The notes under the pieces: generated by a model
The model's database searches: none
The model's input: only the letters and a program-made list of their open reading frames with translations
What the model was told of the DNA's origin: nothing
Origin: a virus
Strand: one strand, 5' to 3'
Length of the DNA stretch: 39,525 nt
Virus record (IMG/VR): IMGVR_UViG_3300042260_000408
Span: 1-39,525 of that record
Part shown: positions 6,007-21,679 of the stretch, piece after piece
Numbering within the stretch: the first letter of the stretch is position 1
Layout: each line of letters starts with the position of its first letter
Made by a program: the position numbers and the translations under genes

Positions 6007-6546
6007 TTGTCAGATGTGCTGCTGTTAAACAGCGACTTTAATCCAATCAGCATTCTTCCCTTAAGTGTAATAAGTTGGCAACATGCCGTTAAATTATATT
6101 TTTTGGATAGAATTCAAATTCTTGAAGAATACGACGACTGGGAAATTCACAGTGAATACTTGACTATGAAAGTTCCTGCTGTCTGTGTGACCAAAGATTA
6201 CTTTAAATTCAAAAAGGCTGCAAAATTCAGTCGCAGTAATTTGTTTTTGCGCGATCTATATCAGTGTCAGTACTGCGGTGATACTTTTGATCACAAAGAA
6301 CTGACATTAGATCATGTCAAGCCACGCAGCCGGGGCGGTAAAACAAACTGGGAAAATAGTGTAACAGCTTGCCGTAGTTGCAATTTTCGAAAAGGTACCC
6401 ATGACTGGAAACCTTTGCGGGAGCCATACAAACCAGATCATTTTCAACTAATTAATAAATGGCGGCAAAGGCCTATACAGGTCAAACATGCAAGTTGGTA
6501 TGTGTATTTGGGCTTAGAGATTCCAGATAAAAAACAAAATCTTTAA
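6007..6546 (+). CDS. HNH endonuclease (179 aa)
   Basis: Free-standing HNH nuclease. Zinc-binding Cys pairs at C87/C90 (CQYC) and C122/C125 (CRSC) frame the HNH core: LTLDHVKPRSRGG with D102-H103, and NSVTAC with N117. The N-terminal half (LLLNSDFNPISILPLSVISW) and the C-terminal HASWYVYLGLE are typical of a widespread phage and cyanobacterial HNH family. The start is TTG at 6007 (GTG at 6016 is possible); no good Shine-Dalgarno is visible. It is the only plus-strand gene in the first 21 kb and sits between terL and the head-protein cluster, opposite a GIY-YIG gene with which its 3' end overlaps by 65 bp. A homing role, or help in packaging-related cutting as for other HNH proteins next to terminases, is possible. 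Confidence 0.9.
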   Translation: MSDVLLLNSDFNPISILPLSVISWQHAVKLYFLDRIQILEEYDDWEIHSEYLTMKVPAVCVTKDYFKFKKAAKFSRSNLFLRDLYQCQYCGDTFDHKELTLDHVKPRSRGGKTNWENSVTACRSCNFRKGTHDWKPLREPYKPDHFQLINKWRQRPIQVKHASWYVYLGLEIPDKKQNL

Positions 6547-7138
6547 ACTTTCCGTTTTTGATTTTCAAATCAGGATACTTATAAGCAAGATAATATATAT
6601 TTCTTTGCTTGTATCCTGATATTTTTTCATACTCCCCTACACTATCATAATATGATATTTTACCTAGCGGATTAATAACTTTTAATCTGTATTTTATATT
6701 CCATGGTTTTTGACCTTGCTTGAATGATGCAGAATGCTTTATTTTTTTCCCTTTTTTTGATTCTTTCATTTTTTCTATTGCTTCTGGTGAATTTATTTTT
6801 CCTTTGTTACTAGAAGATATTTTCTTTTTTGTTTCATCTGAATGCCGCATACCGCTTGTGCCCCTGTCACCGCCATCAGTTAAATTACGCAATATTCCTG
6901 TACCTATATCTTTTCTACCGTACCATTTAATAAGTCTGCGTTCTAGAGCACAAGCTCCTACATTGGTCAAATTGCATTCTATGAAAACTATTCGTTTTTT
7001 ATCTATAGGAACTTTTACATTGTGAGCCGAAGCAAAGGCACGAGAAGAATGTCCTTTACCTATGTAATATGGTGTTGAATCTGATTTTCTTAAATAGGCA
7101 TATACATAATACCTATTTGTGTCATCTATAAATAACAT
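6482..7138 (-). CDS. GIY-YIG homing-type endonuclease with NUMOD3-like motif (218 aa)
   Basis: GIY-YIG fold signature at the N-terminus: YYVYAYLR (10-17) followed by YYIGKG (24-29), then ALERRLIKWYGR with a candidate catalytic Glu. A NUMOD3-like DNA-binding motif follows (HSDETKKKISSSNKGK, repeated in weaker form as SPEAIEKMKESKKGKK). The C-terminal part is Lys/Tyr rich and may contain a second DNA-reading domain. The protein is a likely selfish mobile element of the T4 Seg type. Its 3' end overlaps the convergent HNH gene. It has its own late box (7201-7208), a leader with a two-part hairpin, and a GGGAG Shine-Dalgarno. Codon use is more AT-rich than the flanking genes, consistent with independent acquisition. 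Confidence 0.88.
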   Translation of the reverse strand: MLFIDDTNRYYVYAYLRKSDSTPYYIGKGHSSRAFASAHNVKVPIDKKRIVFIECNLTNVGACALERRLIKWYGRKDIGTGILRNLTDGGDRGTSGMRHSDETKKKISSSNKGKINSPEAIEKMKESKKGKKIKHSASFKQGQKPWNIKYRLKVINPLGKISYYDSVGEYEKISGYKQRNIYYLAYKYPDLKIKNGKFKDFVFYLESLSPNTHTNLHV

Positions 7139-7208: not shown

Positions 7209-7416
7209 AAATTGGTTTTTCTTTTGTAAGATATGGCCTCGAGAACCACAAGCGGAACCAATCTTCGGTGCCTGGTTTTATTTTATGCTTACGCATAAGT
7301 TTGGCTTTTTCAGTACCTGTGTAACTGATATTTTCAGTTTGGCCGGGTTTGTATTCTTGCCACTGTGGTCTATTGCCAATGCCTGCTAAGACTTTAAGTT
7401 CTTGTACAGCGTCCAT
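7207..7416 (-). CDS. Small hypothetical protein (69 aa)
   Basis: Starts MDAVQELKVLAGIGNRPQWQ and is basic in its second half (KAKLMRKHKIKPGTEDWFRLWF). No known family is recognised. The KHKIKPGTEDWFRLWFSRPYLT segment is conserved-looking and may be a small structured domain. Its ATG overlaps the stop of the 127-aa gene by one base, so it is the last member of the coupled 203-977-652-127-69-aa gene series. I recall similar short proteins near the packaging genes of marine T4-like phages, without function. Confidence 0.72.
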   Translation of the reverse strand: MDAVQELKVLAGIGNRPQWQEYKPGQTENISYTGTEKAKLMRKHKIKPGTEDWFRLWFSRPYLTKEKPI

Positions 7417-7799
7417 TATACACCATACTTGTTTCGTTTTTTGGGTGCCACTGGACTTTTTTTGTAAGTGCTAGGCACTTCCATGCTGCGATTGTCGCCG
7501 TGATTTAAATCTATGTGTTTACTGCCCATTACTTCATAAGCTTGTTTTAGCATTTGGGCTTCAATATCAGTCATTGGGGCAGCAATGTTATAACGGCCGG
7601 CCCAACTTTCTGCATCCAGTGTATCTGGCAAAGGATCTACTCCATTGCTTGAAGCTGTGGCCATCATGATACGATATAATTCGTAGAATCTATCTCTGCC
7701 TTCTACATCTTGAAACTTGTGCAGACCTCGACTAGCGTACTCATGTCTCTTACGCATAGGCCCAATTTTTTGTTCTGCTAGTATTTCGTTGATCTTCAT
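7416..7799 (-). CDS. Conserved hypothetical with capsid-targeting-like N-terminus (127 aa)
   Basis: The start at 7799 gives MKINEILAEQKIGPMRKRHE; a longer open frame to 7928 overlaps the conserved end of the previous gene and is rejected. The first nine residues resemble the T4 capsid-targeting peptide (MKTYQEFIAE), with LAE matching the Leu/Ile-x-Glu prohead-protease rule. The body (ASRGLHKFQDVEGRDRFYELYRIMMA, residues about 21-46, then DAESWAGRYNIAAPMTD) is of a type I recall from marine myophages. The ATG lies one base after the stop of the 652-aa gene. It may be a head-interior protein; no enzyme motif is visible. Confidence 0.75.
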   Translation of the reverse strand: MKINEILAEQKIGPMRKRHEYASRGLHKFQDVEGRDRFYELYRIMMATASSNGVDPLPDTLDAESWAGRYNIAAPMTDIEAQMLKQAYEVMGSKHIDLNHGDNRSMEVPSTYKKSPVAPKKRNKYGV

Positions 7800-7800
7800 A

Positions 7801-9759
7801 TTACCAAGCCCTGCAGCTCCAATAACGAGCTTTCCAACGGGGACCAGGATTGGCACAGTTGTGTCTTGCTCTAAAACTCTTACGGCGTTTTGGATTAGAC
7901 TTTTTGATACGCATGTTTTTGTCACCAAAATTTACTTTGACAACATTGCCTTTTGGTCCGCGAACATATACTTTAGATTTTTTCACATCTCCTGCCATTG
8001 GCTTGCCAAGAGGCACTTCACGGCCTTGATACTTGGCTTCGCTGATGTCAACATTGACATTTTGCCAAAATTCTTTTATCCAATCTTCGTTGCCGTACTT
8101 GTCAAGGAATTGTGCTAGTTCCATGCGTTCTGCATCAGTATGCATCTGTTCTTTCATACGGCCTTCCGCCACAACTTTGTTATTTTGATCTCGAATCCAT
8201 TGATCTCGTGCTTGTTGATCAGCAAAACCTTTGGTGTCGCGTGTGCCACTATGCTGTGCCCAAAAGCGACCGCGTTCATAACCAGCCTTACGCCATTGCC
8301 CTGGGTTTTCGCGTTTGATATGGGTGCCATTGCCTTCCGATACGCCTTGCTGATTAAAAGCAGATATTTCTGCCTTGATGCGGTTTAAAGTCTTTGGAGA
8401 TAACTCTATAACCATAGAACGGAAGTCACCTTCGTACTGGTCCCAGAATTGGGCTAACAATGGACAACTACTATATAATTCTTCCATAGCATCGTCGCCC
8501 TGGCGGTTAATCTGTCTAAGCATTCCTAAGATTTCGTGGCCGACAGTTTGCGAGCCTTCCGCCACACCTTGCTGACCCTGCTCTAAATTCTTTATCTCCC
8601 TGGCAGACCAACCTTGATCCTTGAGATGTTGTTTGGCATTGATGTAAGCCAATGGTTCGTTTCTTCTTTTATTTTGTTGGATAACTCGTATGGCCAGTTT
8701 TGTCAACGGGTCTAACTCGTCGTAGGAGCCTTCCGCCACACCTTGTCTTTTATTTCTAATCTCTAGACCAAGTTCGTAACCTTCGTTCCAGTAATATGCT
8801 TCTCTGTTAATGTCTGGGTCACCGTAGGGGTTATTTCTTGGTTTTCCTGCTATTCCTGCCTGTTGCCCTTGGCTATGTATTTCATACATTGGGTTACTGG
8901 GATGATGTTCTTCTGCCACACCTTGTGCAGGTGTAGTACCAGCAATTTTGGCCATGCTGATAACATTTTTATCAGCTTGTTTTTGAATAATGCTTTGTGC
9001 TTTGGCCATGGCCTTTGGACTGGCTCGCATGATAATAGCTGGCTTAGTAAAACTGTCGTCGGTTTCGTTGGCTTTTATTTTGCCAAGAGCTTGCTTAGTA
9101 GCTAGCCTCTGACCTACCGCCTGCGCCCGGTCAAACCCTTTTTGCTGTAAAGCGCCTGTGGGATCATCTTTAGGATTAGCAGCCTTGTACAGTGCCTTTT
9201 CAGCACTATGCCTTTTCATTGCAGCATCAACGGCAGGAGTATACTGATCGAAATCTTTGCCGCCTACTGCAGGTGCGTAAACTTCTGATACACCTTTAGC
9301 ATCTTTAATTCTTTGCTGCAAATTAGAAATTTTTGCTTTTATCTCTTTGTTTCTAGTCCATACTCGGTGATCATCACTGTATTCATAATCAGGATCGTAT
9401 TCAGATTGTAACTGAGCCAAATACTTTTCTAGTGTGGGCAAATTCTCTCGATCTTTAGCTAACTGTTCGGCTCTTTCCTTATCACGGATCTCAGCTTGGG
9501 CGGCCCATCGCTCGCGCTCTTTGGCTTCTGCTTTGGCTCTTACATCAGCAATTAAATTTGTCCAATAATCGTTGTCAGTGGCTTCTAACAATGCACCGCT
9601 TGTGCCTAACAGTGCTAGTGCTTTGTCGTCGGCTTCAATAACAATGCCATCATCCATGAACCCAACAACACGGCTTTCGATTACCATGTTGCCTAGTTCA
9701 ATATCAAAATTGTCGCCTAGTTTTATAGATTCATCAACAATGACTTGGTTAATTTTCAT
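7801..9759 (-). CDS. Modular protein with QGVAEG joints and conserved Arg-rich C-terminal domain (652 aa)
   Basis: The N-terminal domain (MKINQVIVDESIKLGDNFDI, small beta fold, residues 1-60) is followed by a Lys/Glu/Arg coiled-coil-like region to about residue 155. Then a chain of short modules is separated by GVSEV (about 155), QGVAEE (279), QGVAEG (339), QGVAEG (397), QGVSEG (471) and VVAEG (528). The 281-338 module has QAGIAGKPRNNPY...YYWNEGYELGLE, similar to ribosome modulation factor. The C-terminal 60 residues (KVYVRGPKGNVVKVNFGD, then NPKRRKSFRARHNC and ARYWSC) form a basic Cys-containing module that I recall from many marine phage proteins. The first four bases overlap the previous gene as ATGA. 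The VAE/G joints resemble prohead-protease sites, so a packaged polyprotein is the favoured idea. Confidence 0.75.
   Translation of the reverse strand: MKINQVIVDESIKLGDNFDIELGNMVIESRVVGFMDDGIVIEADDKALALLGTSGALLEATDNDYWTNLIADVRAKAEAKERERWAAQAEIRDKERAEQLAKDRENLPTLEKYLAQLQSEYDPDYEYSDDHRVWTRNKEIKAKISNLQQRIKDAKGVSEVYAPAVGGKDFDQYTPAVDAAMKRHSAEKALYKAANPKDDPTGALQQKGFDRAQAVGQRLATKQALGKIKANETDDSFTKPAIIMRASPKAMAKAQSIIQKQADKNVISMAKIAGTTPAQGVAEEHHPSNPMYEIHSQGQQAGIAGKPRNNPYGDPDINREAYYWNEGYELGLEIRNKRQGVAEGSYDELDPLTKLAIRVIQQNKRRNEPLAYINAKQHLKDQGWSAREIKNLEQGQQGVAEGSQTVGHEILGMLRQINRQGDDAMEELYSSCPLLAQFWDQYEGDFRSMVIELSPKTLNRIKAEISAFNQQGVSEGNGTHIKRENPGQWRKAGYERGRFWAQHSGTRDTKGFADQQARDQWIRDQNNKVVAEGRMKEQMHTDAERMELAQFLDKYGNEDWIKEFWQNVNVDISEAKYQGREVPLGKPMAGDVKKSKVYVRGPKGNVVKVNFGDKNMRIKKSNPKRRKSFRARHNCANPGPRWKARYWSCRAW
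8162..9300 (-). repeat. Dispersed QGVAEG-coding repeat, six copies in the 652-aa gene
   Basis: The minus-strand consensus is CAAGGTGTGGCGGAAGGCTC. Exact 20-bp copies lie at 8552-8571 and 8726-8745. Diverged copies lie at 8162-8180 (VVAEG), 8333-8351 (QGVSEG), 8908-8926 (QGVAEE) and 9281-9299 (GVSEV). All are in the same reading phase and strand. Spacing is 57-74 codons except for the first interval of about 124 codons. Confidence 0.85.
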
Positions 9760-12689
9760 TTTCTTACCTTAATGCTTTCGTAATCACGGGCTGCAGTTTC
9801 ACGCATGGCTATTGGGTTGTCACCAAACTGATAACCATGTTTGTGCATTTTCTTTTCTTGACCGGCGACATCACCGTTACCGCCTTTTAACTGAATATCT
9901 GTGCCATACACTTGTTCGTCGGGTGTTGTACTGGCATGATATCTAGGATCTTTTTCTTCTTCAAGATCTTCTTCAGCATCATCAACAACTACTTCAACAG
10001 GTTGATAAACAGCTTCAGGTTCGCCGTTACCTAAGCCTGCCAGTTTCAATAACTGTGCAAGTTTTACAGCATCTTCGCCGTCGACACTTACAGTCATGCT
10101 TTGATGGCCATCGCTGTCTGCATTCATGCTGATGTTCATATGTCCCTCGTCTTGGCTGGGCATTGAACTGTCACAGCCACATTCTGTCATGGTATAACCA
10201 CATTCTGTGCAGGTTTCGTGACCTTCGTCTAGTTCCTCATCGGGAGGTACTGATGCTGGTGAAAAAGGATCTCTTTTGCCAGGCTCTTTAGGGGCCATTG
10301 CGCCAAACTCTTTGGCCTGTTCAGCTGATTTTGCAAAAGCAGGAGGAGGTATTACTATTAAATTTTCGTCAATTTCGTCTGTGTGAAATTCTTGGCCGAA
10401 TGTTGTAAACTTGTCTTTGCCGGCTTTTTCAGCAGCTGCGTCTTGCTGCTGAATGTATTCACCTTTGCTAACTTCGTCTACTTTTTCTTCGTTGCCACGC
10501 AGCATTGCAAAATCTTCAGCGTCTAGCTTACCATTATGGTTTTTGTCTAGCTTCTTCTGGCCGCCTTTTAGTGCTTCTTCCATACCAGCAAGGCGCATCA
10601 TTTCTTCTAGTTCATAGTCGCCTTCGTCAACTGGCTTAGCCCATCCTGAACTTGGATCTGCACTGCCTGCCCATCTACCTACACTTGCTGCACTTGCGTC
10701 TTTTTTAGGATTATTGGTTCTAGCCCATCCTGAACTTGGATCTGCACTGCCTGCCCATCTGCCAAGGCTTGCTGCATCAGCGTCAGCTTCATCTACAGGT
10801 ACTGGCAGTGGTACACCTTTTTCTCCAGGCTTAGGAGCGTCTGCTGTCCATACGCCATTCTTAATTGTACCCATTGCTGGTGCAGGTTGAGCTGCAGGTG
10901 CTGTTTTAGCGGATGCGCCTTTATCTAGTCCTTTGATAAATTTTCCTAGCGGATCTGCATCTTCAAGCATTTGTTCATACTTTTGCATATACTGTTCAAA
11001 AGCAGACTTCTTAGGACGACCACGACCACGCTTGACTGCTGTGACATTTTCTGTGTCATCGGTTTCACCAGTCTTGGGATTGTACTTACGGCTGTATACT
11101 GTTCCGCCTGTGGTAGGATCTGTTTTCTTGTTAAACTTGCCAGTGCCTTTTTCTTCACGACTCTTAGCACTAACAGCTTTCATCATATCTTCCCAGCCTT
11201 CAGTGATCTGTTGACTAGTCATACCACTGTTAGCAAGAACTCTAAGTGCAGCTACTGCTTCTTCAACTTTGCCTGCTTTGTGTGCTTTCCAAGCCGTGGC
11301 ATAAGCAATGCCTTTTTCTTTGTCTGACAATTTACCGTCTTTGGCATAGCCTTTTTTAATATGTTTTACCATACGCTCTGCTTTGGCTCCTGGGGGTGCT
11401 ACTTCCGCCACACCTTGCTCTTTATTTTGTGAGTCTGCATATTTTTGGTTTAACCTAGCACAAACTTCGTCTGCGTCTTCGGTATCATAAAAAACAGTAC
11501 CGCTGTTTAATTTTCTACCTGGGCCTACAACATAATATCCATCTTCACCGCCTTTTACTTGATATGGACCCGATTCAGAGCCTTCCGCCACACCTTGTTT
11601 TGGTTCGAATACAGTAGGATAACCTGTTTTGCGATCGTAAACTCCAACTGTTTCGCCTTGACTGTTTTTAGCAATCACGCTGTCAACTGCTCCGCCACCT
11701 TCTTTGCGATTCCAAAATTTCACATCACTACCGTGATCTTTGCGAACTTGATTAGCCCATTTTCTTACGCTAACACCTGCGGAGCCTTCCGCCACACCTT
11801 GCTGACCATATAAATTCTCAAGTTCTTGTCCCACTAATGTCATTGCATCAACTGCACTTAGACCGTAGAACTTGTCCATATCGGCTAAGATTACAACTGT
11901 ATCTTCAACTTCGCCCATGCCGTAGTTGTCAAACCATTCTGGATGATGACGGTCAATCAAACGCAGTACTTTGCTTACGCTTGCTGGGGTTACACCTTCC
12001 GCCACACCTTGCTCTTTGACTGGTCTAACTTCGTGATATCTTGGATCTGCTTTAGTGTAACTATCCGCTTTCTTATCACTGCCTCTACCATAGTGTGTAG
12101 GCCCAATTTGTTTATTGGTTTTAGTATGGAACTTGGCGTGGCCTTGTTTGTAAGTATCCGAGCCTTCCGCCACACCTTGCTCAGGCAGCACAGGAGCTCG
12201 ATGTTTACCTAATCGGCTACGAATATGGTCTTTTTTATCTTGAGTAGGAATCAGTTGCTGTACGGCACGTGGTCTATCACCTGGCTTCCAGTCTTTAGGT
12301 GTAGTAATGTCATAACCGCGTCCTGGTTGCAGGCCAAATGTTTCAGTGTCACTTTGTGCTAGTTTTGATCCAATACGAGATGGGGATCTTTCCGCCACAC
12401 CTTGCTCGCCTAGCTTTTTGCCTTGGGCGGCAGCTTGCTGGAATTTTTTCTTTCCGTATTTTTCACGGCCAATTGCTGCTGCAACTGCTTCGGGATTGTC
12501 GGCGCTGCCACCTTTTTTAATTGCGGCAACAGTTTTCTTAAAGCCCATATATTTTTCATTTAGTTGGCCTTCCACAGTTTTGATATTTTCTGCCAGTTGA
12601 CTTTTGGCTTTTGGCTGTTGAACAGGTTGTTGGTCCTTTTGTTCAACTGCTGCTAGTTTGTTAAGGATGTCGTATAAATTATTGCTCAT
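9756..12689 (-). CDS. Large modular protein with QGVAEG joints, AT-hook, EF-hand and Cys cluster (977 aa)
   Basis: After an N-terminal helical segment (MSNNLYDILNKLAAVEQ; SQLAE near residue 33) there are six joints QGVAE(G/R/V) near residues 97, 171, 227, 298, 366 and 426, spaced 56-74 residues. Modules include VSKVLRLIDRHHPEWFDNYG, VSVRKWANQVRKDHG and YQVKGGEDGYYVVGPGRK. The second half has MVKHIKKGYAKDG, an ITE/GW site, an AT-hook-like KRGRGRPKK (about 552-560) and a tandem repeat GRWAGSADPSSGWA. It also has an EF-hand/dockerin-like DKNHNGKLDAED (about 713-724) and a CTECGYTMTECGC cluster (about 826-838). The end is acidic. Shine-Dalgarno AGGAAC precedes the ATG. I favour a head-packaged polyprotein; a scaffold or structural role is the alternative. 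Confidence 0.75.
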   Translation of the reverse strand: MSNNLYDILNKLAAVEQKDQQPVQQPKAKSQLAENIKTVEGQLNEKYMGFKKTVAAIKKGGSADNPEAVAAAIGREKYGKKKFQQAAAQGKKLGEQGVAERSPSRIGSKLAQSDTETFGLQPGRGYDITTPKDWKPGDRPRAVQQLIPTQDKKDHIRSRLGKHRAPVLPEQGVAEGSDTYKQGHAKFHTKTNKQIGPTHYGRGSDKKADSYTKADPRYHEVRPVKEQGVAEGVTPASVSKVLRLIDRHHPEWFDNYGMGEVEDTVVILADMDKFYGLSAVDAMTLVGQELENLYGQQGVAEGSAGVSVRKWANQVRKDHGSDVKFWNRKEGGGAVDSVIAKNSQGETVGVYDRKTGYPTVFEPKQGVAEGSESGPYQVKGGEDGYYVVGPGRKLNSGTVFYDTEDADEVCARLNQKYADSQNKEQGVAEVAPPGAKAERMVKHIKKGYAKDGKLSDKEKGIAYATAWKAHKAGKVEEAVAALRVLANSGMTSQQITEGWEDMMKAVSAKSREEKGTGKFNKKTDPTTGGTVYSRKYNPKTGETDDTENVTAVKRGRGRPKKSAFEQYMQKYEQMLEDADPLGKFIKGLDKGASAKTAPAAQPAPAMGTIKNGVWTADAPKPGEKGVPLPVPVDEADADAASLGRWAGSADPSSGWARTNNPKKDASAASVGRWAGSADPSSGWAKPVDEGDYELEEMMRLAGMEEALKGGQKKLDKNHNGKLDAEDFAMLRGNEEKVDEVSKGEYIQQQDAAAEKAGKDKFTTFGQEFHTDEIDENLIVIPPPAFAKSAEQAKEFGAMAPKEPGKRDPFSPASVPPDEELDEGHETCTECGYTMTECGCDSSMPSQDEGHMNISMNADSDGHQSMTVSVDGEDAVKLAQLLKLAGLGNGEPEAVYQPVEVVVDDAEEDLEEEKDPRYHASTTPDEQVYGTDIQLKGGNGDVAGQEKKMHKHGYQFGDNPIAMRETAARDYESIKVRK
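10637..10760 (-). repeat. Tandem 40-bp direct repeat (RWAGSADPSSGWA)
   Basis: Bases 10637-10676 and 10721-10760 are identical over 40 bp, offset by 84 bp (28 codons). They encode RWAGSADPSSGWA twice in the 977-aa protein. The segment between the copies encodes a Lys/Asn linker (RTNNPKKDASAAS). The exact identity points to a recent in-frame duplication. Confidence 0.9.
11402..12407 (-). repeat. Dispersed QGVAEG-coding repeat, six copies in the 977-aa gene
   Basis: Exact 20-bp copies of CAAGGTGTGGCGGAAGGCTC (minus strand) lie at 11578-11597, 11782-11801 and 12160-12179. A copy with a 17-bp exact core lies at 11995-12011. Shorter exact cores lie at 11402-11417 (followed by GTA, giving VAEV) and 12390-12404 (VAER). 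All are in the same phase and encode QGVAE. Confidence 0.88.
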
Positions 12690-12700
12690 GATTGTTCCTA

Positions 12701-13312
12701 TTATTTCTTCACTGGCGAAGGGATTTTATTTTGCTTGCTGCCTACAGGGTCAACTTTGCCTTGAGGTAAGCTGTTTGTTGTGCCTTGGCTTTGGAAATTT
12801 TTATCTTTTTCTTTGCCACCAGCAGCTTCAGGATAATGATATTTGCGAGTTTCTTCAAGCTCTTTCATTATACTGGGTATTCTTGCATCGCCTACTAAGT
12901 CTGCAGCAGGTGCAGCAGTGGTCATTTCTGGTTCATTAAGCACAGTGCCGCCATCGGGGTTGCTCATTTCTTTGCCATCCATGATAGCTTCAAATGGACT
13001 GTCTGTGGGTGTTACACGGATATTTGATGCAGGACAGCAACCACATTCTGCAATAGCATCACGCACTAGGTCGTCATTGGCTGGATAGCAGATACTGACA
13101 TCAATGATATTAACTTCTGTAGGGCCCATGTTGGGAAACAGTGGGCTTTCGTGAATGGGTAAACGCTTGGGTTTGCTGATGCTTTCAACTTTATACTGTT
13201 CCAAAGATTGTTTTACTTTGGCTTCAATGTCGCTGGTCATTTCACAGGCCATGCGAATTCTAAAGTTGTAAGTCTTTTGGCTTTCTGTTAGGTAGGCTTT
13301 AAATGACTTCAT
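12701..13312 (-). CDS. Probable internal head protein with capsid-targeting-like peptide (203 aa)
   Basis: The N-terminus MKSFKAYLTESQK resembles the T4 capsid-targeting sequence MKTYQEFIAE of internal proteins IPI-IPIII, cleaved after Glu by the prohead protease; here LTE/S fits the Leu/Ile-x-Glu rule. Residues about 15-105 form a ferredoxin-like alpha/beta domain (YNFRIRMACEMTSDIEAKVK, later NIIDVSICYPAND and ECGCCPASNIRVTP). The C-terminal half is low complexity (Pro, Ala, Lys, Gln) and probably disordered. I recall similar proteins in marine T4-like phages, without function. It is preceded by a late box 20 bp upstream and a TAGGAATTCCC Shine-Dalgarno region, and starts the head-interior gene series. 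Confidence 0.75.
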   Translation of the reverse strand: MKSFKAYLTESQKTYNFRIRMACEMTSDIEAKVKQSLEQYKVESISKPKRLPIHESPLFPNMGPTEVNIIDVSICYPANDDLVRDAIAECGCCPASNIRVTPTDSPFEAIMDGKEMSNPDGGTVLNEPEMTTAAPAADLVGDARIPSIMKELEETRKYHYPEAAGGKEKDKNFQSQGTTNSLPQGKVDPVGSKQNKIPSPVKK

Positions 13313-14674: not shown

Positions 14675-17092
14675 TTAATAGTTGTAAGTCCAGTCACCGC
14701 TGGCAATAGGATCATTTGCATAAGCTTCATATAAGCCTGTTTCTGCTTCGATAGCTGATGCATTCCAATCGTCTGGGGTAATATTAACTGGGGCAGTTCC
14801 GCTGTCAGTCCCGAATGCAGTATTAATATATTCCCCTGAACCACTTAATATTGGATTTCCAGCGCCATCTGTCCATACTGTTGCAGGATAAGCACCAATT
14901 TGCGGATTACCTGCAGAACCATCAGCCGCAGATTTACTACCGCCTAATAAGTTGCTTAACCAATTACCAGCACCGTCAGCAGGAGCAGATGTTTGAGTAT
15001 ATGTTCCATTGGAATCTCTAAAATACTGACTGCCATTTTTATAAGTGAAGTATCCTGTGCCATCGCTTTCTATAACTGCATTTACAACATTTTTGTTAGG
15101 GCTATCTTTGCTAAATCCTCCTGACCCAAAAATGTCGCTGAAAGTATTTTTTATAGTTCCGCTGACACCGTCAAACACCTGTGTAACTCCACCAGCAACA
15201 CCATTAAGAACTGGTTGCAGTGCATTGTTAACTAGTCTGCCTGTGACTAACCCAACAGCACCACTTACACCTGCGGCCACTGATTGTCCTAATACGCTTT
15301 GTCCTAAAAATCCTTTGGTCAGACCAGAATAAACAGTTTGTGCAGTGTAACCACCTGCTACCAATCCACCGGCACCACTTAAAGTATTAACAATTTGAGC
15401 TGAGGTACCGCCGATTGTGTAAGTTACACCAGTTTGTGGATCAGTGTAATATTTTACACCTGCAGGATTTAAATTTTGTCCTTGCTGAACCAATGCGCTG
15501 CTGTTTTGTGGAATTGCTACAGGTTCTGGATTTCCTGTGTAATTTGTACCAGGCACTAATTTTTGCTGTACACCATTTTCGTCAATGGTTACCTGTGTGC
15601 CGTCTCTGTATGTGTAGACCGTCATTACTTGTCCGTTGCTGTCGGTTACTCTTTGTTTAGATTCTTGATTAGTTTCTAAATTGCCTGGAATATAAGTGCC
15701 GGTAGTGGTACTTAAAACCTGTCGGCTGCTTATAGGATTACCATCTTCATCAAGAGTCAACGATGTTTGTTGATTTGTTACAGGTTGACCATACTGGTTA
15801 ACTAAAATATTATTGCCTTGATTTGTAGTAACTTGAAAAAGTTTTACATTGCCTTGTTGCAGACTATTAGTAATCACTCCGTTTACATAATTATTTGCAA
15901 TATTTGTTCCAATGGATATTACACCAGCTTGCAAAGTGCCGCCAATAGGAGTACCTGCAACGGTTACGCCATTGCTTTGCGGTAAAGCACTGTAGGGGTT
16001 AGACAATACATTTGATTGGCTATAAACTAATCCGCTGCCCAAGCTGGCAGTTGGCACTGTTATGCTGTTTCCTAATGCAGCGTTGACTGCTTGGTTAATA
16101 GCTGTAATACCTATGCGAGTTAAACTTTGTCTTGCAAGATTTGTAAAATTAACATTCTTTAAATTTTTAGCAAGGTTGTAAGCATTTAACAGTGCATTAA
16201 AAATATTAGCCCCGGAACCTTGGCCGTCGGGTCTGGCTAGATCTTTTGTTCCGTTTGATAATGCACCTATTAGGCCATTATCATCATAAATGTTTGTTGT
16301 ACTAGTACTAATAGGACTTTGTACATTGTCATAATGTATGGTAGCAAACCCATTTACATCAATTGGATTTACATATCCTGTTTTGTATTTGACAGTTTCA
16401 AACATCACTGTCATTTGATTTTCCATAATACCAGTACCTTGTTCGCTGTTATGTTCACCATGACGCCAATCATTGATATATGGATTAATTAATTCGTATT
16501 CTGTGAATCTTTTATTGTGTAAACTGAAAATTTGTATGCTGGTTAAAAAAGGAACAACACTGGCATTTCTTGGAGTAAACCCCCAACTGTCAGTAAGTCT
16601 GGGCTGATATTTGTGTGGAGTAGAATAGTAAGCTTTAGTATAGTCGCTGTCTCTGTAGTAATAGGTATAGTAGTCATTCCAAAATTTGGTCACAACATCT
16701 GCTGCATCGTCGTGGAATGTAATTGTAATAGGGTCGTAGGTAATGCCTGTTTGTATTATATTTTTTCTATTGTAAGCATTTTTAGTCTGTGTTGCAATTC
16801 TAAAATTTGGTAGTCCTACTCTTTTGGCCAATAACCCTACTTCATATTGTTCTAGTGTTGTTTGACTGCTGATTTGGCTAGTAAAAATTTGCTGGCTAAA
16901 CAGTGCAGTTACCTGTGATAATAAATCATTACCTAAATTATTGTTAATGTTTATAACAACATAATATAAAAAACTTTGCTTAGGCGCTAATCTAAAGTTG
17001 TCAGCCAAAAATAACTTTGTGGCATGCTGATAAGGATGCGTGTAAGTACCAGGAGTTAAAGGCTTAAGATCTGCGTTGTACAAAGTGGCCAT
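14675..17092 (-). CDS. Large tail-associated structural protein with tube-like N-terminal domain (805 aa)
   Basis: Residues about 1-260 form a conserved domain starting MATLYNADLKPLTPGTYTHP and including RIATQTKNAYNRKNIIQTG, ITFHDDAADVVTKFWNDYY and ENQMTVMFETVKY. The pattern (two-layer beta fold with DD...FWNDYY) recalls tail-tube and baseplate-cap folds, which fits its position next to gp19. The remainder is long and repetitive: Asn/Gly/Val-rich, with SVLGQSVAAGVSGAVGLVTG as a hydrophobic Gly/Ala helix near residue 600, and small YTYRDGTQVTIDENG / YFTYKNGSQYFRDSNG beta-hairpin repeats. I recall large proteins of this kind after gp19 in pelagiphages. The exact role (tube cap, tape-like or fiber) is unresolved. 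It starts 5 bp after a late box and lacks a Shine-Dalgarno. Confidence 0.75.
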   Translation of the reverse strand: MATLYNADLKPLTPGTYTHPYQHATKLFLADNFRLAPKQSFLYYVVININNNLGNDLLSQVTALFSQQIFTSQISSQTTLEQYEVGLLAKRVGLPNFRIATQTKNAYNRKNIIQTGITYDPITITFHDDAADVVTKFWNDYYTYYYRDSDYTKAYYSTPHKYQPRLTDSWGFTPRNASVVPFLTSIQIFSLHNKRFTEYELINPYINDWRHGEHNSEQGTGIMENQMTVMFETVKYKTGYVNPIDVNGFATIHYDNVQSPISTSTTNIYDDNGLIGALSNGTKDLARPDGQGSGANIFNALLNAYNLAKNLKNVNFTNLARQSLTRIGITAINQAVNAALGNSITVPTASLGSGLVYSQSNVLSNPYSALPQSNGVTVAGTPIGGTLQAGVISIGTNIANNYVNGVITNSLQQGNVKLFQVTTNQGNNILVNQYGQPVTNQQTSLTLDEDGNPISSRQVLSTTTGTYIPGNLETNQESKQRVTDSNGQVMTVYTYRDGTQVTIDENGVQQKLVPGTNYTGNPEPVAIPQNSSALVQQGQNLNPAGVKYYTDPQTGVTYTIGGTSAQIVNTLSGAGGLVAGGYTAQTVYSGLTKGFLGQSVLGQSVAAGVSGAVGLVTGRLVNNALQPVLNGVAGGVTQVFDGVSGTIKNTFSDIFGSGGFSKDSPNKNVVNAVIESDGTGYFTYKNGSQYFRDSNGTYTQTSAPADGAGNWLSNLLGGSKSAADGSAGNPQIGAYPATVWTDGAGNPILSGSGEYINTAFGTDSGTAPVNITPDDWNASAIEAETGLYEAYANDPIASGDWTYNY

Positions 17093-17774: not shown

Positions 17775-20700
17775 TTAATTTGCTCCTGTTCCTACTGGTT
17801 CAGCTGGTGCAACATTGTTACTGTTTAACTGTCCTGCTGCTACCAATCTAATTGGGATGTAGATAAATTCAACATCCTTAGTTGGTTGTACTGCAATGTC
17901 TACCCACAACTCATTTCTGTTAATACGATCTGGTGTGTTATTAGATGAATCGCAAACTACCAAATAATCTGCTACACCGCGTTTAGCAACTAAATCGTTC
18001 ATTAAACTGTTACATACTGCGGTCATGCTATTTCTTGTAATAGTGTCATTTGGTTCAAACAAGAATGGTCTGCTTAATACATTCAATTGTTTTCTAACAT
18101 AGTTAATCAACCTTGCTACATTAATTCTATCAAGCGCACTTGGCAGTGTTGCAAGAGTTTTCTGACCGTATACAACTAGTCCTACTCCGGGCAAGCTGGT
18201 AATTGGGTTAATTGCATTTGTGTACAGTATGTCACGCAGGCCTTGATTAATACCAACTGTTACAAATGCTCCTGTTGATGCATTAACATAACCAATGGAA
18301 TTTAAATTGTCAATAAGCCCTCTGCGTGTACCAGCTGGTGCTATCCAAGGATAACTTGCATTGTCACTGTTTAAAATACTGCGTAGTACTGCATGACTTG
18401 GGGGTACAACTACTGTGGCGCCTGATAAGTCAGTTGTTTGTCCACTTGGGTAATATAAACCAACATAAGGATCGCTGGTATTCAAACCATCTTCGCCTGT
18501 TGCACTGGCATCAGCACTGTTAGTTGCCCACGCTTGCACTGCTGTACCAGTAGCAGGTAGTCTAAATGGTGTATCACCAATAATAAATGCGGTGTCATCG
18601 CGGTCATTGTTTAAAGCTACCATGTTAGGGATCAGTTCTGGGTAGCCTGGACATGCAATCAAGTTAAATTGATTACTGTCTTCACGCAACACTGTACTGC
18701 TGTCAATGGCACTCTTTAACGCTGCAACTACTACACCGCGTTGAGCTTTGCGTCCAAAGTTTGGAAGATTCTGTGTATCAAATCCACTGGCACTTAACCA
18801 AGTAGCTGTTTCACTGGGGATAGTTTCTCCAGGATAAGCTGCTTGAGTGAAGTAGCTGCTCTTGTATTGCTTTACATTATATCCACTGGCTCTTGTGTTA
18901 AACAACAATATACCTTTTGGATATAATAAAGGATCTGGAGCATCTAGGTCAACATAATTGCTAACAGCCAAAGTAGCAATAGAGGGAATAGTTCCTGTTG
19001 CTACATCAGTTGTGCCATCTGTGTCCCAACGAGCATCAGCAAAAATAATACCATTTTGTCCTGTGCTGTCTGTAAGGTCAATTGCTACCCATTGGTTAAT
19101 ACCACTGACATTTTGCCATCTATACAGTGCTGGATAATTTTCTAAATCTCCTGTATCTAACCATAGATCGCCATAAACCAATGCTGTACCGTCATCTTGT
19201 GTAGTAGGTTCACTGGCACTAATAATAGGACCTGTACTGTTAGTATTAGCAAGGTTGTATCCTCTAATGTCTACAGTAGATGTACTTTGGTAGCCCAGCC
19301 AAGCTGTGCCATTGCTGTACATGATATCAACACGACTTGGTGTGTTGTAGTACCAGTAAGTATTATTAGCTGGTGCTACATAAGGTTGTGTTGAAGTAAA
19401 ATAATAATCGTCTGTGCTTAACGGAGCCCAATTTGTACACTCTGCTATGCTTGAATTTACATCGCTGGTGTAAATGTTTGTTCCACTTAACAAACCTACA
19501 TCTGCCAATGGGGTTCCAGTTACATCTTGAAGTCCAATATCGCCGCCCTGGCTATGAGTAATACTAACATTGCCGCTTGTTGTGATATTTGCTGTTACAT
19601 AAGGAATGTCGGCAGCCACAATAGCTGCAACCAATCCAGCTGGTGTTTCTGTTGAACCAATATTTACTGTAAAAGTGGTTAAGTTTGCCAAAGACAAATT
19701 GCTTCTTGTAATGACATAAAATTGATCACCTGTACTGGGATTAGAAGGAGTAGCAGTTGAGCCAACTGCTGTCATAGCTCCAGAATTTTTTCTATACCAC
19801 AATTTAGTACCTAAAACAGGTGTGGTATTTGCTGCGCTAGAATAAGCTAGATAATCAACATACACAGTATCCACTGGAATATTAATACCGCCACCAGTTG
19901 GATCTAACCCGTATGAAGCATTTGACAAAGTGTCGTAAGAGTTAACGGTCTTTGGGTCCCAAGTCAATGTACTGCTGCTGTATTGACTTACACTTAAGTT
20001 TAACCCTGCACCCAATGCGCTGGATTTGTTCCACACACTACCACTTGGTCTACCTTCGTTGGCTCTTAAATTGCCAGTCCAAGTTGGGTTAGAATTATAA
20101 GGACCTACTGTTACTGCTGCGCCTTTGTATGTGCCTGATTCCAATCCGATAGAAGAAAGTACAGTTGTATTGCCACCCAGTGTAGCAGTTCCATTACCCT
20201 GGCTTGTACTTGTAATGGCAATAGCCAACAGTCCAGAACTTGTAATCCAACTGTATACATTGCTGCTGTCTGCGGCATTGATATTAGCAGATACTTGTGC
20301 CAATGTTTGACCAAGGCCAACAACAACACTGGAATTAGAATTAATTGTAATATTACCTGCGGCTGCTGTAAAAGTACTGCTGGTTACTGTGCTGTAAATT
20401 GCTGCTGTATTTTGTTGCCAACCTACATTACCAACTTGGTTCCATTTGTTTGTGCGGTCTTTTCTAAAAATAGGCTGTTTTGGATCGTATACATTTACAG
20501 CATAACTGCCAACAGCACCAATGTTTGTAGTTGGTACTGTGTTGCTGGCTGTAAGATATGTTGTGTCACTTACTACCAATACTGTTTGATTAGTAAATGT
20601 GCTGGTGACAGCATCCCACTCATAAACACCCCAAGCACTGTTACTTGTATCTAACCAAAATGTACCATTGTTAGGGTTCTTAAGTGGTCTTGTTGTTGTA

Positions 20701-21062
20701 CCTGTTAGGGCTGCTAAATCAACATCTGCTCGTTGTACATACATGTTATTGCTAACACCCAATGCACTGTAAGCAGCCAGTAGACCGTATTCATTGAGCT
20801 CATCACCATTTAACGGTGCACCAGCAGCAGTAGTGCTAAACAATGGTGTTCCAAATGTTGTAACCAATTCACGCTGGCTGGTAATATTGTAAATTTCACC
20901 TGCATTTTCAGCAAGTGTACCTGCAGCATAAGCAGTGCCGCCTGGGGCTACTTTGTCTTGTGCTGTGGCTAGTAAAATATATGCTGTACTTCCTGTGGTA
21001 GCTGGAGTATAGTTGCTTTGATCAACTACTGTTACCTGTACGCCTGGACTCACTAAGGCCAT
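17775..21062 (-). CDS. 18: gp18 tail sheath protein, enlarged (1095 aa)
   Basis: Contractile sheath subunit. The N-terminus MALVSPGVQVTVVDQSNYTPA is the standard gp18 start. The C-terminal 350 residues are typical (ARWDTDG, GYNVKQYKSSYF, FNLIACPGYPELIPNM, VGLYYPSGQ, INPITSLPGVGLVVYGQKTL and RINVARLINYVRKQLN). It is much longer than T4 gp18 (659 aa). About residues 100-600 hold extra surface domains: several FWLDTSN...GVYEW / LWLDTGD...ALYRW hairpins and two longer Thr/Val/Asn-rich domains (ITINSNSSVVVGLGQTLAQV and FTVNIGSTETPAGLVAAIV). The ATG overlaps the stop of the upstream GIY-YIG gene by one base, so the homing gene was inserted exactly at its 5' boundary. Confidence 0.95.
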   Translation of the reverse strand: MALVSPGVQVTVVDQSNYTPATTGSTAYILLATAQDKVAPGGTAYAAGTLAENAGEIYNITSQRELVTTFGTPLFSTTAAGAPLNGDELNEYGLLAAYSALGVSNNMYVQRADVDLAALTGTTTRPLKNPNNGTFWLDTSNSAWGVYEWDAVTSTFTNQTVLVVSDTTYLTASNTVPTTNIGAVGSYAVNVYDPKQPIFRKDRTNKWNQVGNVGWQQNTAAIYSTVTSSTFTAAAGNITINSNSSVVVGLGQTLAQVSANINAADSSNVYSWITSSGLLAIAITSTSQGNGTATLGGNTTVLSSIGLESGTYKGAAVTVGPYNSNPTWTGNLRANEGRPSGSVWNKSSALGAGLNLSVSQYSSSTLTWDPKTVNSYDTLSNASYGLDPTGGGINIPVDTVYVDYLAYSSAANTTPVLGTKLWYRKNSGAMTAVGSTATPSNPSTGDQFYVITRSNLSLANLTTFTVNIGSTETPAGLVAAIVAADIPYVTANITTSGNVSITHSQGGDIGLQDVTGTPLADVGLLSGTNIYTSDVNSSIAECTNWAPLSTDDYYFTSTQPYVAPANNTYWYYNTPSRVDIMYSNGTAWLGYQSTSTVDIRGYNLANTNSTGPIISASEPTTQDDGTALVYGDLWLDTGDLENYPALYRWQNVSGINQWVAIDLTDSTGQNGIIFADARWDTDGTTDVATGTIPSIATLAVSNYVDLDAPDPLLYPKGILLFNTRASGYNVKQYKSSYFTQAAYPGETIPSETATWLSASGFDTQNLPNFGRKAQRGVVVAALKSAIDSSTVLREDSNQFNLIACPGYPELIPNMVALNNDRDDTAFIIGDTPFRLPATGTAVQAWATNSADASATGEDGLNTSDPYVGLYYPSGQTTDLSGATVVVPPSHAVLRSILNSDNASYPWIAPAGTRRGLIDNLNSIGYVNASTGAFVTVGINQGLRDILYTNAINPITSLPGVGLVVYGQKTLATLPSALDRINVARLINYVRKQLNVLSRPFLFEPNDTITRNSMTAVCNSLMNDLVAKRGVADYLVVCDSSNNTPDRINRNELWVDIAVQPTKDVEFIYIPIRLVAAGQLNSNNVAPAEPVGTGAN

Positions 21063-21679
21063 TATTTTTCTCCTAATAATCTGTATAATTTAGATTTTGA
21101 AATGTTTAACATATTACAGCATTCTTTACGGGTAGCATAGCTAATTCCGTTAACTGTCACTGGTTTGGCACTCCCGTTGGAGCTACCAGAATGCCCGTAT
21201 TTTCTATTTCTTTCTTCTTTCGACATATTTTGATAATTTAGCATTGCAGTTTTTTTAATTTTAGAAATCACGCTATCGGTAGGCTTATAAGATTTTTTAG
21301 AGATTCGAATAGCTTCTTTGTGCTGTTCAGTCTTGCTGACGCCTGCTAATACGCGAGACATAGCTATACCAATTTTTTGATTAACAGCTTCACCTAAATT
21401 ACCGCCTTGTCCACCAAAAGCAATGTTATAGCACAATGGATTTGATAGGAGTTCTTGGGTTAAAAGTTCCTTCTCTTTGCTATTCATTTGTGCTCTGGAT
21501 TCAAATGTATACAACACTTCTTTTTTAAATGCGTCGGGTCCGTGTTTTTTAATCGCGGATTTAATCGCAATACCACTGCCCATATACCCATCATTTACAT
21601 TTGTAGTTTCGTGTTTACCAATGTAAAATTTTTGGTTAATTTGGTTAGTGATTTTATAAATTAAAAAACATTTTTTCAT
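21062..21679 (-). CDS. GIY-YIG homing-type endonuclease abutting gene 18 (205 aa)
   Basis: GIY-YIG signature LIYKITN (6-12) and FYIGKH (18-23), with IKKHGPDAFKKEVLYTFES and the YNIAFGGQGGN loop typical of Seg-like enzymes. The C-terminal PVTVNGISYATRKECCNMLN followed by ISKSKLYRLL is a NUMOD1-like helix-turn-helix DNA-reading domain. It is very basic. Its stop overlaps the gp18 ATG (TAATG), so it couples to an essential gene. It is preceded by a late box 6 bp before its ATG, with no Shine-Dalgarno. It is unlike the GIY-YIG protein at 6482-7138 outside the catalytic signature, so the two were probably gained separately. Confidence 0.88.
   Translation of the reverse strand: MKKCFLIYKITNQINQKFYIGKHETTNVNDGYMGSGIAIKSAIKKHGPDAFKKEVLYTFESRAQMNSKEKELLTQELLSNPLCYNIAFGGQGGNLGEAVNQKIGIAMSRVLAGVSKTEQHKEAIRISKKSYKPTDSVISKIKKTAMLNYQNMSKEERNRKYGHSGSSNGSAKPVTVNGISYATRKECCNMLNISKSKLYRLLGEK

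Follow-up and report, generated by a model that had tools for sequence, protein, structure and literature searches.

The small, variable internal proteins of T4-like phage heads, such as IPI, IPII, IPIII, and Alt of T4, have short M[K/R]xxx[F/I/L][I/L/V]xE-like starts and a hydrophobic-x-Glu site (PMC9026906). The T4 prohead protease gp21 cleaves after L/I-x-E and cuts gp22, gp67, and gp68 each into several fragments (PMC9026906, PMC5694885), gp245 of SPN3US cleaves after A-x-E (PMC9026906, PMC10052503, PMC5694885), and head proteins of phiKZ and SPN3US are cut at (S/A/G)-x-E or A-x-E (PMC5694885, PMC10052503). A different class, the polyvalent proteins (Iyer et al. 2017, PMC5512222), carries many domains on one polypeptide that is predicted to be packaged and injected.

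We analyzed, at the sequence level, two adjacent genes of a T4-like virus and their relatives, which encode arrays of small cassettes. The arrays resemble the T4 internal head proteins in their short starts, their hydrophobic-x-Glu sites, and their small, variable predicted products, but T4 encodes one protein per gene, whereas each array ORF strings together many unrelated small proteins that are separated by predicted sites and have a common DNA word at the joints. Like T4 gp22, gp67, and gp68 and the phiKZ and SPN3US head proteins, the arrays are predicted to receive several prohead-protease cuts per chain, always after Glu. However, the pieces of those proteins are scaffold or propeptides that mostly leave the head, whereas the array pieces look like separate exchangeable domains. 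With polyvalent proteins the arrays have in common several distinct domains per polypeptide, an overlapping repertoire (ParB-like domains), and domain mosaicism (PMC5512222). The domains of polyvalent proteins are large, and some of these proteins contain embedded peptidases (PMC5512222); the arrays instead have small cassettes, a conserved DNA word, and predicted sites at which the phage's own prohead protease would cut. The arrays are best read as a variant of the T4 internal-protein/capsid-targeting (CTS)/gp21 system. Repoila and colleagues reportedly described in 1994 a variable internal-protein locus of T-even phages, in which short common DNA for the head-targeting leader is said to help neighboring genes to exchange. 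There the exchange is between genes, whereas in the arrays it would be of cassettes inside one ORF. A search of open-licence papers for QGVAEG returned nothing, and we found no description of such arrays there.

The window, by which we mean the whole 39.5-kb stretch of DNA analyzed, is a T4-like phage fragment from a virus record. By family search, its T4-type genes encode a UvsX-like recombinase, a gp32-like SSB, a large terminase, a tail tube, a sheath, and a head-closure protein. The closest isolate by terminase is the Pseudomonas jumbo phage PA5oct (~54% identity), and the identity to the terminase of Sinorhizobium phage Phosso is 53%. The tail sheath is unusually long (1095 aa; 17775-21062, minus strand), and next to a tail tube of normal size (204 aa) there is a second tail-tube-like protein, also long (805 aa; 14675-17092, minus strand). 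The minus strand also carries two genes of homing-endonuclease type (NUMOD3-containing; phrog_314), at 6482-7138 and 21062-21679, one of them near the cassette genes. We confirmed both cassette ORFs called in the first-pass annotation, and they and their neighbors are arranged as follows:

7416-7799, minus strand: 127-aa neighbor gene with the CTS-like start MKINEILAE/Q
7801-9759, minus strand: 652-aa cassette protein, with the CTS-like start MKINQVIVDE, an N-terminal domain, cassettes, and a conserved C-terminal module
9756-12689, minus strand: 977-aa cassette protein, with conserved N- and C-terminal parts (to about residue 95 and 430-977, respectively) on either side of five cassettes (residues 101-429)
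12701-13312, minus strand: 203-aa neighbor gene with the CTS-like start MKSFKAYLTE/S and a weak match to the virion structural family phrog_14802

A search for isolate homologues of the 127-aa neighbor found none; a relative sits downstream in locus L251.

The same annotation had described twelve (Q)GVAEG-type joints between modules unrelated in sequence. We counted 12 joints of the GV[AS]E type, or 13 when an ISE/A toward the C terminus of the 652-aa protein is included, and the modules between them were indeed unrelated, apart from a few families that recur elsewhere. The joint pattern is real and far above chance. Measured between the Glu residues that end the joints, the spacings are 75, 56, 70, 68, and 60 residues in the 977-aa protein and 124, 60, 58, 74, 57, and 42 in the 652-aa protein. 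All of the following lie on the minus strand, in the order of each protein:

12387-12404, minus strand: 977-aa joint 1, QGVAER, predicted cut after E100
12162-12179, minus strand: 977-aa joint 2, QGVAEG, predicted cut after E175
11994-12011, minus strand: 977-aa joint 3, QGVAEG, predicted cut after E231
11784-11801, minus strand: 977-aa joint 4, QGVAEG, predicted cut after E301
11580-11597, minus strand: 977-aa joint 5, QGVAEG, predicted cut after E369
11400-11417, minus strand: 977-aa joint 6, QGVAEV, predicted cut after E429, ahead of the conserved VAPPGAKAERMVKHIKKGYAKDGK module
9730-9759, minus strand: 652-aa N terminus MKINQVIVDE/S, capsid-targeting-like, a kind of start enriched in cassette genes
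9280-9297, minus strand: 652-aa joint KGVSEV, predicted cut after E159; pLDDT drops to about 35 just behind it
8908-8925, minus strand: 652-aa joint QGVAEE, predicted cut after E283
8728-8745, minus strand: 652-aa joint QGVAEG, predicted cut after E343
8554-8571, minus strand: 652-aa joint QGVAEG, predicted cut after E401
8332-8349, minus strand: 652-aa joint QGVSEG, predicted cut after E475
8161-8178, minus strand: 652-aa joint KVVAEG, predicted cut after E532; a homologous module is found elsewhere behind LTE, LDE, VSE, and VAE
8035-8049, minus strand: 652-aa joint DISE/A, predicted cut after E574, which matches the T4 rule L/I-x-E
7804-8037, minus strand: 652-aa C-terminal module AKYQGREVPLGKPM... 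(residues 575-652), with a family match (phrog_7595) and homologues

The joints of both proteins also have a DNA word of ~20 nt in common, with a consensus of about AGCAAGGTGTGGCGGAAGGC. Six exact copies of CAAGGTGTGGCGGAAGG occur in the window versus 0 in 100 shuffles, and the joint 18-mer with up to 3 mismatches occurs 11 times versus 0.01 expected; every copy is on the coding strand inside the 652-aa and 977-aa genes. Among 44 GVAE joints from loci fetched independently with other queries, 64% had the GGTGTGGCGGAA spelling versus 0.5% expected from the codon use of the same ORFs. The Ala codon was GCG at 77-88% of joints versus 7% elsewhere in these ORFs. The consensus persisted across ORFs of 33-66% G+C and was weaker below 38% G+C, where 31% of 16 non-query joints were exact. 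On the spelling and G+C figures we rejected codon bias and base composition as the cause of the DNA identity. In the fetched viral loci, all 286 of 286 distinct occurrences of the joint 12-mer fell within a long ORF and in the frame that reads GVAE, and none was in another frame or between genes. The first-pass annotation, whose proposal of cleavage joints is supported, had missed both this word and the in-frame gain and loss of cassettes. Our best idea for the synonymous conservation is that the word may aid cassette exchange.

The exact joint 17-mer matched at least 120 stretches of viral contigs; at least 33 viral loci had two or more copies, and no fewer than 80 had ORFs in which joint-like motifs occurred twice or more. 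Cellular genomes and synonymous-codon spellings served as controls. The 17-mer gave 70 single, unrelated matches in bacterial and archaeal genomes totaling 257 Gb, which is the chance level, and a second GVAE-like motif lay beside 1 of the 70. When QGVAEG was spelled in two other ways with commoner synonymous codons, viral matches numbered 39 and 49 versus the at least 120 above; of the 39 and 49, 2 and 16, respectively, resembled arrays. Given the cellular result, we rejected chance as the origin of the viral matches. We identified no isolate that carries the exact DNA word.

Homologues of the 977-aa protein in more than 20 viral contigs have its N- and C-terminal parts in common and other modules between them. 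Orthologues of the 652-aa protein lie just downstream of the 977-aa homologue, and their length depends on the number of cassettes, from 196 aa (L236) through 227 and 351 aa (L246, L254, and L242) up to 652 aa. In the 196-aa orthologue, the N-terminal domain is followed by LTE/AKYQGR..., and in L251 it runs straight into LLE/AEYQGR. Between relatives with flanks at least 80% identical, we counted 32 distinct cassette insertion/deletion events, 30 of them in frame; the right edge fell at [VLIM]-x-E in 31 of the 32 events and the left edge in 25, versus 23% at random. A comparison of L040 with L208 showed one joint copy at the empty site and two at the filled site, around about 300 extra codons. 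One cassette in L106 is duplicated in tandem (199 of 201 nt identical), and the window cassette behind E401 (residues 402-469, or 402-475 when taken up to the next joint) is 100% identical in L317 with different neighbors. An assembly artifact is unlikely: the usual assembly k-mers probably exceed a repeat of ~20 nt, in-frame events also occur at nonidentical joints, and isolate phages have multi-module versions. The cultured marine T4-like phages Melnitz (Methylophilales; MZ577097.1) and HTVC008M (Pelagibacter; KC465899.1) encode multi-module proteins of 597-650 aa whose N-terminal domain, nucleotidyltransferase-like, follows a short leader and which adjoin or include the YQG module.

If the joints are prohead-protease sites, a module found behind a different joint should keep a hydrophobic-x-Glu, and this prediction was borne out. 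We collected 130 boundaries at which a module known from behind a GVAE joint is preceded by some other sequence: [VLIM]-x-E was exactly at the boundary in 53% versus mostly 1-4% (range, 0-10%) at shifted positions. Among the 77 of these with Glu, P3 was V in 36, L in 14, M in 13, and I in 6; P2 and P4 varied, and P1' was mostly G, S, A, D, or E. Counting against cleavage, P1 Glu was absent from about 40% of the 130 boundaries in the alignment used, and V at P3 is a relaxation of the published gp21 specificity, which has L/I there. The C-terminal module AKYQGRxVxLxKP had Glu at P1 in 25 of 26 distinct homologues, with L (12), M (7), V (4), or I (2) at P3 in 25 of 26 and Ala at P1' in 24 of 26. 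The sole exception was Pelagibacter phage Kolga, whose gene has its Met start exactly at P1; in phage C48C1, a small gene of its own encodes the module and has a CTS-like start, MKKFKQYIDEGCCEACKSLDEELELTE/AEYQGKK. Predicted sites were also depleted inside modules. In 211 module interiors, [VLIM]-x-E-[GAS] occurred 15 times versus 41 for the mirrored motif, compared with 1,506 versus 1,117 in the other proteins of the same loci (P = 7e-6 for the contrast), or 1.05 versus 3.77 motifs per 1,000 residues. The relaxed gp21 rule proposed in the earlier annotation thus gains support from a conserved hydrophobic P3 and P1 Glu, from drifting P2 and P4, and from the interior depletion, and the sequence evidence speaks well for the prediction that the phage's own prohead protease cleaves at the joints.

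Head targeting had been proposed as well, from capsid-targeting-like starts, and the window starts MKINQVIVDE/S, MKINEILAE/Q, and MKSFKAYLTE/S fit the pattern; the start of the 977-aa protein (MSNNLYDILNKLAAVE) fits it less well. CTS-like starts were present in 36 of 110 cassette genes (33%) versus 167 of 1,483 others (11%; P = 1e-8), with MRAQEFITE/G, MKFKDLVE/S, and MRFNEIISE/A as examples. The window fragment of 39.5 kb contains no gp21, and some large records, e.g., G002 (343 kb), had no PF03420 match. Among the tested large related records carrying arrays or homologues, gp21 (PF03420) was found in 7 and gp23 (PF07068) in 6, and the MCP N termini in large array records contain the candidate cut sites LAE/N, LAE/S, LLE/N, and LKE/N. 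The L047 record (343 kb) has arrays and a T4-type terminase match without PF03420 or PF07068, so that its head genes are divergent or the record is incomplete. In PA5oct, EST35_0140, annotated as "structural protein, ESI-MS/MS," has a homologue of the ParB-like module, with the alignment starting right after ISE. We infer packaging because of the CTS-like starts and this homologue; together with gp21 and gp23 in related records, they lend support to the idea of head-packed polyproteins put forward in the first-pass annotation. By analogy with the T4 internal proteins, the products would be ejected into the host.

The cassettes are mostly without a functional match. Matches in related arrays included GNAT acetyltransferases, ParB-like domains, a cytidylyltransferase, a cytidine deaminase, GH19, LysM, the SutA RNA-polymerase-binding domain, and Tat signals. 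No peptidase family was among the Pfam matches of 57 + 8 arrays and the window proteins. The RR-x-F-L-K/R Tat motifs in cassette proteins were within 10 residues behind a joint in 5 of 5 cases, which fits an N terminus made by cleavage and later host export. Cassettes that start with a Tat-like signal directly behind a joint were seen in L103, L058, L197, L205, and L210, and cassettes with a Sec-signal-like start, GWKDxxxGxAMxLxxLG..A, in L126, L094, and L089. Modeled with AlphaFold2 from 31 sequences (mean pLDDT, 67), the 652-aa protein consisted of confident separate pieces, with residues 403-474 at a pLDDT of about 90-97. Most joints were in low-confidence stretches, with the exception of E532, inside a predicted helix. 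A fold search with this low-confidence model gave no significant match.

The two genes probably encode head-packaged cargo polyproteins of exchangeable cassettes in which each joint would serve as a cut site for the protease and also as an anchor of homology. Their products would be precursor polyproteins of the phage head interior that enter the prohead core through CTS-like or core-binding N-terminal parts. At every joint, a T4 gp21-type prohead protease would cut after the Glu of [V/L/I/M]-x-E. The small proteins so released, about 40-75 residues long or longer where they come from the conserved ends, would remain in the capsid and then enter the host along with the DNA. The ~20-nt joint would let T4-like recombination add, drop, duplicate, or swap cassettes in frame, so that each cassette would bring its own protease site. 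Among the window genes searched, the UvsX-like recombinase was the only recombinase match.

Cleavage could also serve another end. The arrays could be scaffold or core proteins like T4 gp22, gp67, and gp68, cut to make room for DNA, with the modules as spacers and the pieces mostly discarded. The cutting of T4 core proteins into several fragments by gp21 (PMC9026906) is a precedent, and the C-terminal part of the 977-aa family is E-rich and of low complexity, with many predicted sites. Spacers, however, would need neither the enzyme, binding, and export signatures borne by related cassettes nor the depletion of sites inside modules, and we consider a scaffold role unlikely.

The joints might instead be flexible linkers that stay uncut, within one "polyvalent" virion protein of several domains among which recombination makes exchanges; polyvalent phage proteins, with 2-15 domains, have been described as a class (PMC5512222), and the joints lie for the most part in linkers modeled at low confidence. 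Linkers alone would not hold P1 Glu and a P3 of V/L/I/M while P2 and P4 drift, and they leave unexplained the motif depletion, the Kolga gene start exactly at the cut, and the Tat signals directly behind joints, all of which make this reading quite improbable. The extreme synonymous conservation of the joint word, and the copies of it that flank insert ends, would suit something akin to the Rickettsia palindromic elements, chiefly a DNA repeat, mobile or selfish, that has inserted in frame and whose peptide is incidental. Such an origin is very improbable when every distinct occurrence in the fetched loci is in one frame inside long ORFs and the boundary rule also holds at joints without the DNA word.

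If the cargo reading is correct, tailed phages would have a polyprotein strategy for injected proteins, in which one gene could deliver into a bacterium many different small proteins as separately released effectors, and cassettes could be swapped between viruses with frame and processing intact. It would then be possible to read many small phage proteins of no known function as cargo for injection whose ends are predicted exactly, and to test host-takeover functions one cassette at a time. It is possible, and we propose it tentatively, that a joint with two selected functions, protease site and exchange DNA, makes an open-ended cargo-swapping system through which many T4-like viruses trade small injected effectors, some of them exported after injection via the host Tat or Sec pathway. 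A 20-nt coding joint conserved as DNA over viruses of 33% to 66% G+C raises the question of how cassettes move.

Within the 652-aa gene, the cassette at 8730-8910 (residues 284-343) is weakly RMF-like (PF04957; E = 1.5e-4, below the curated cutoff), which we treat as a lead only, and residues 476-532 may be a diverged second RMF-like module.
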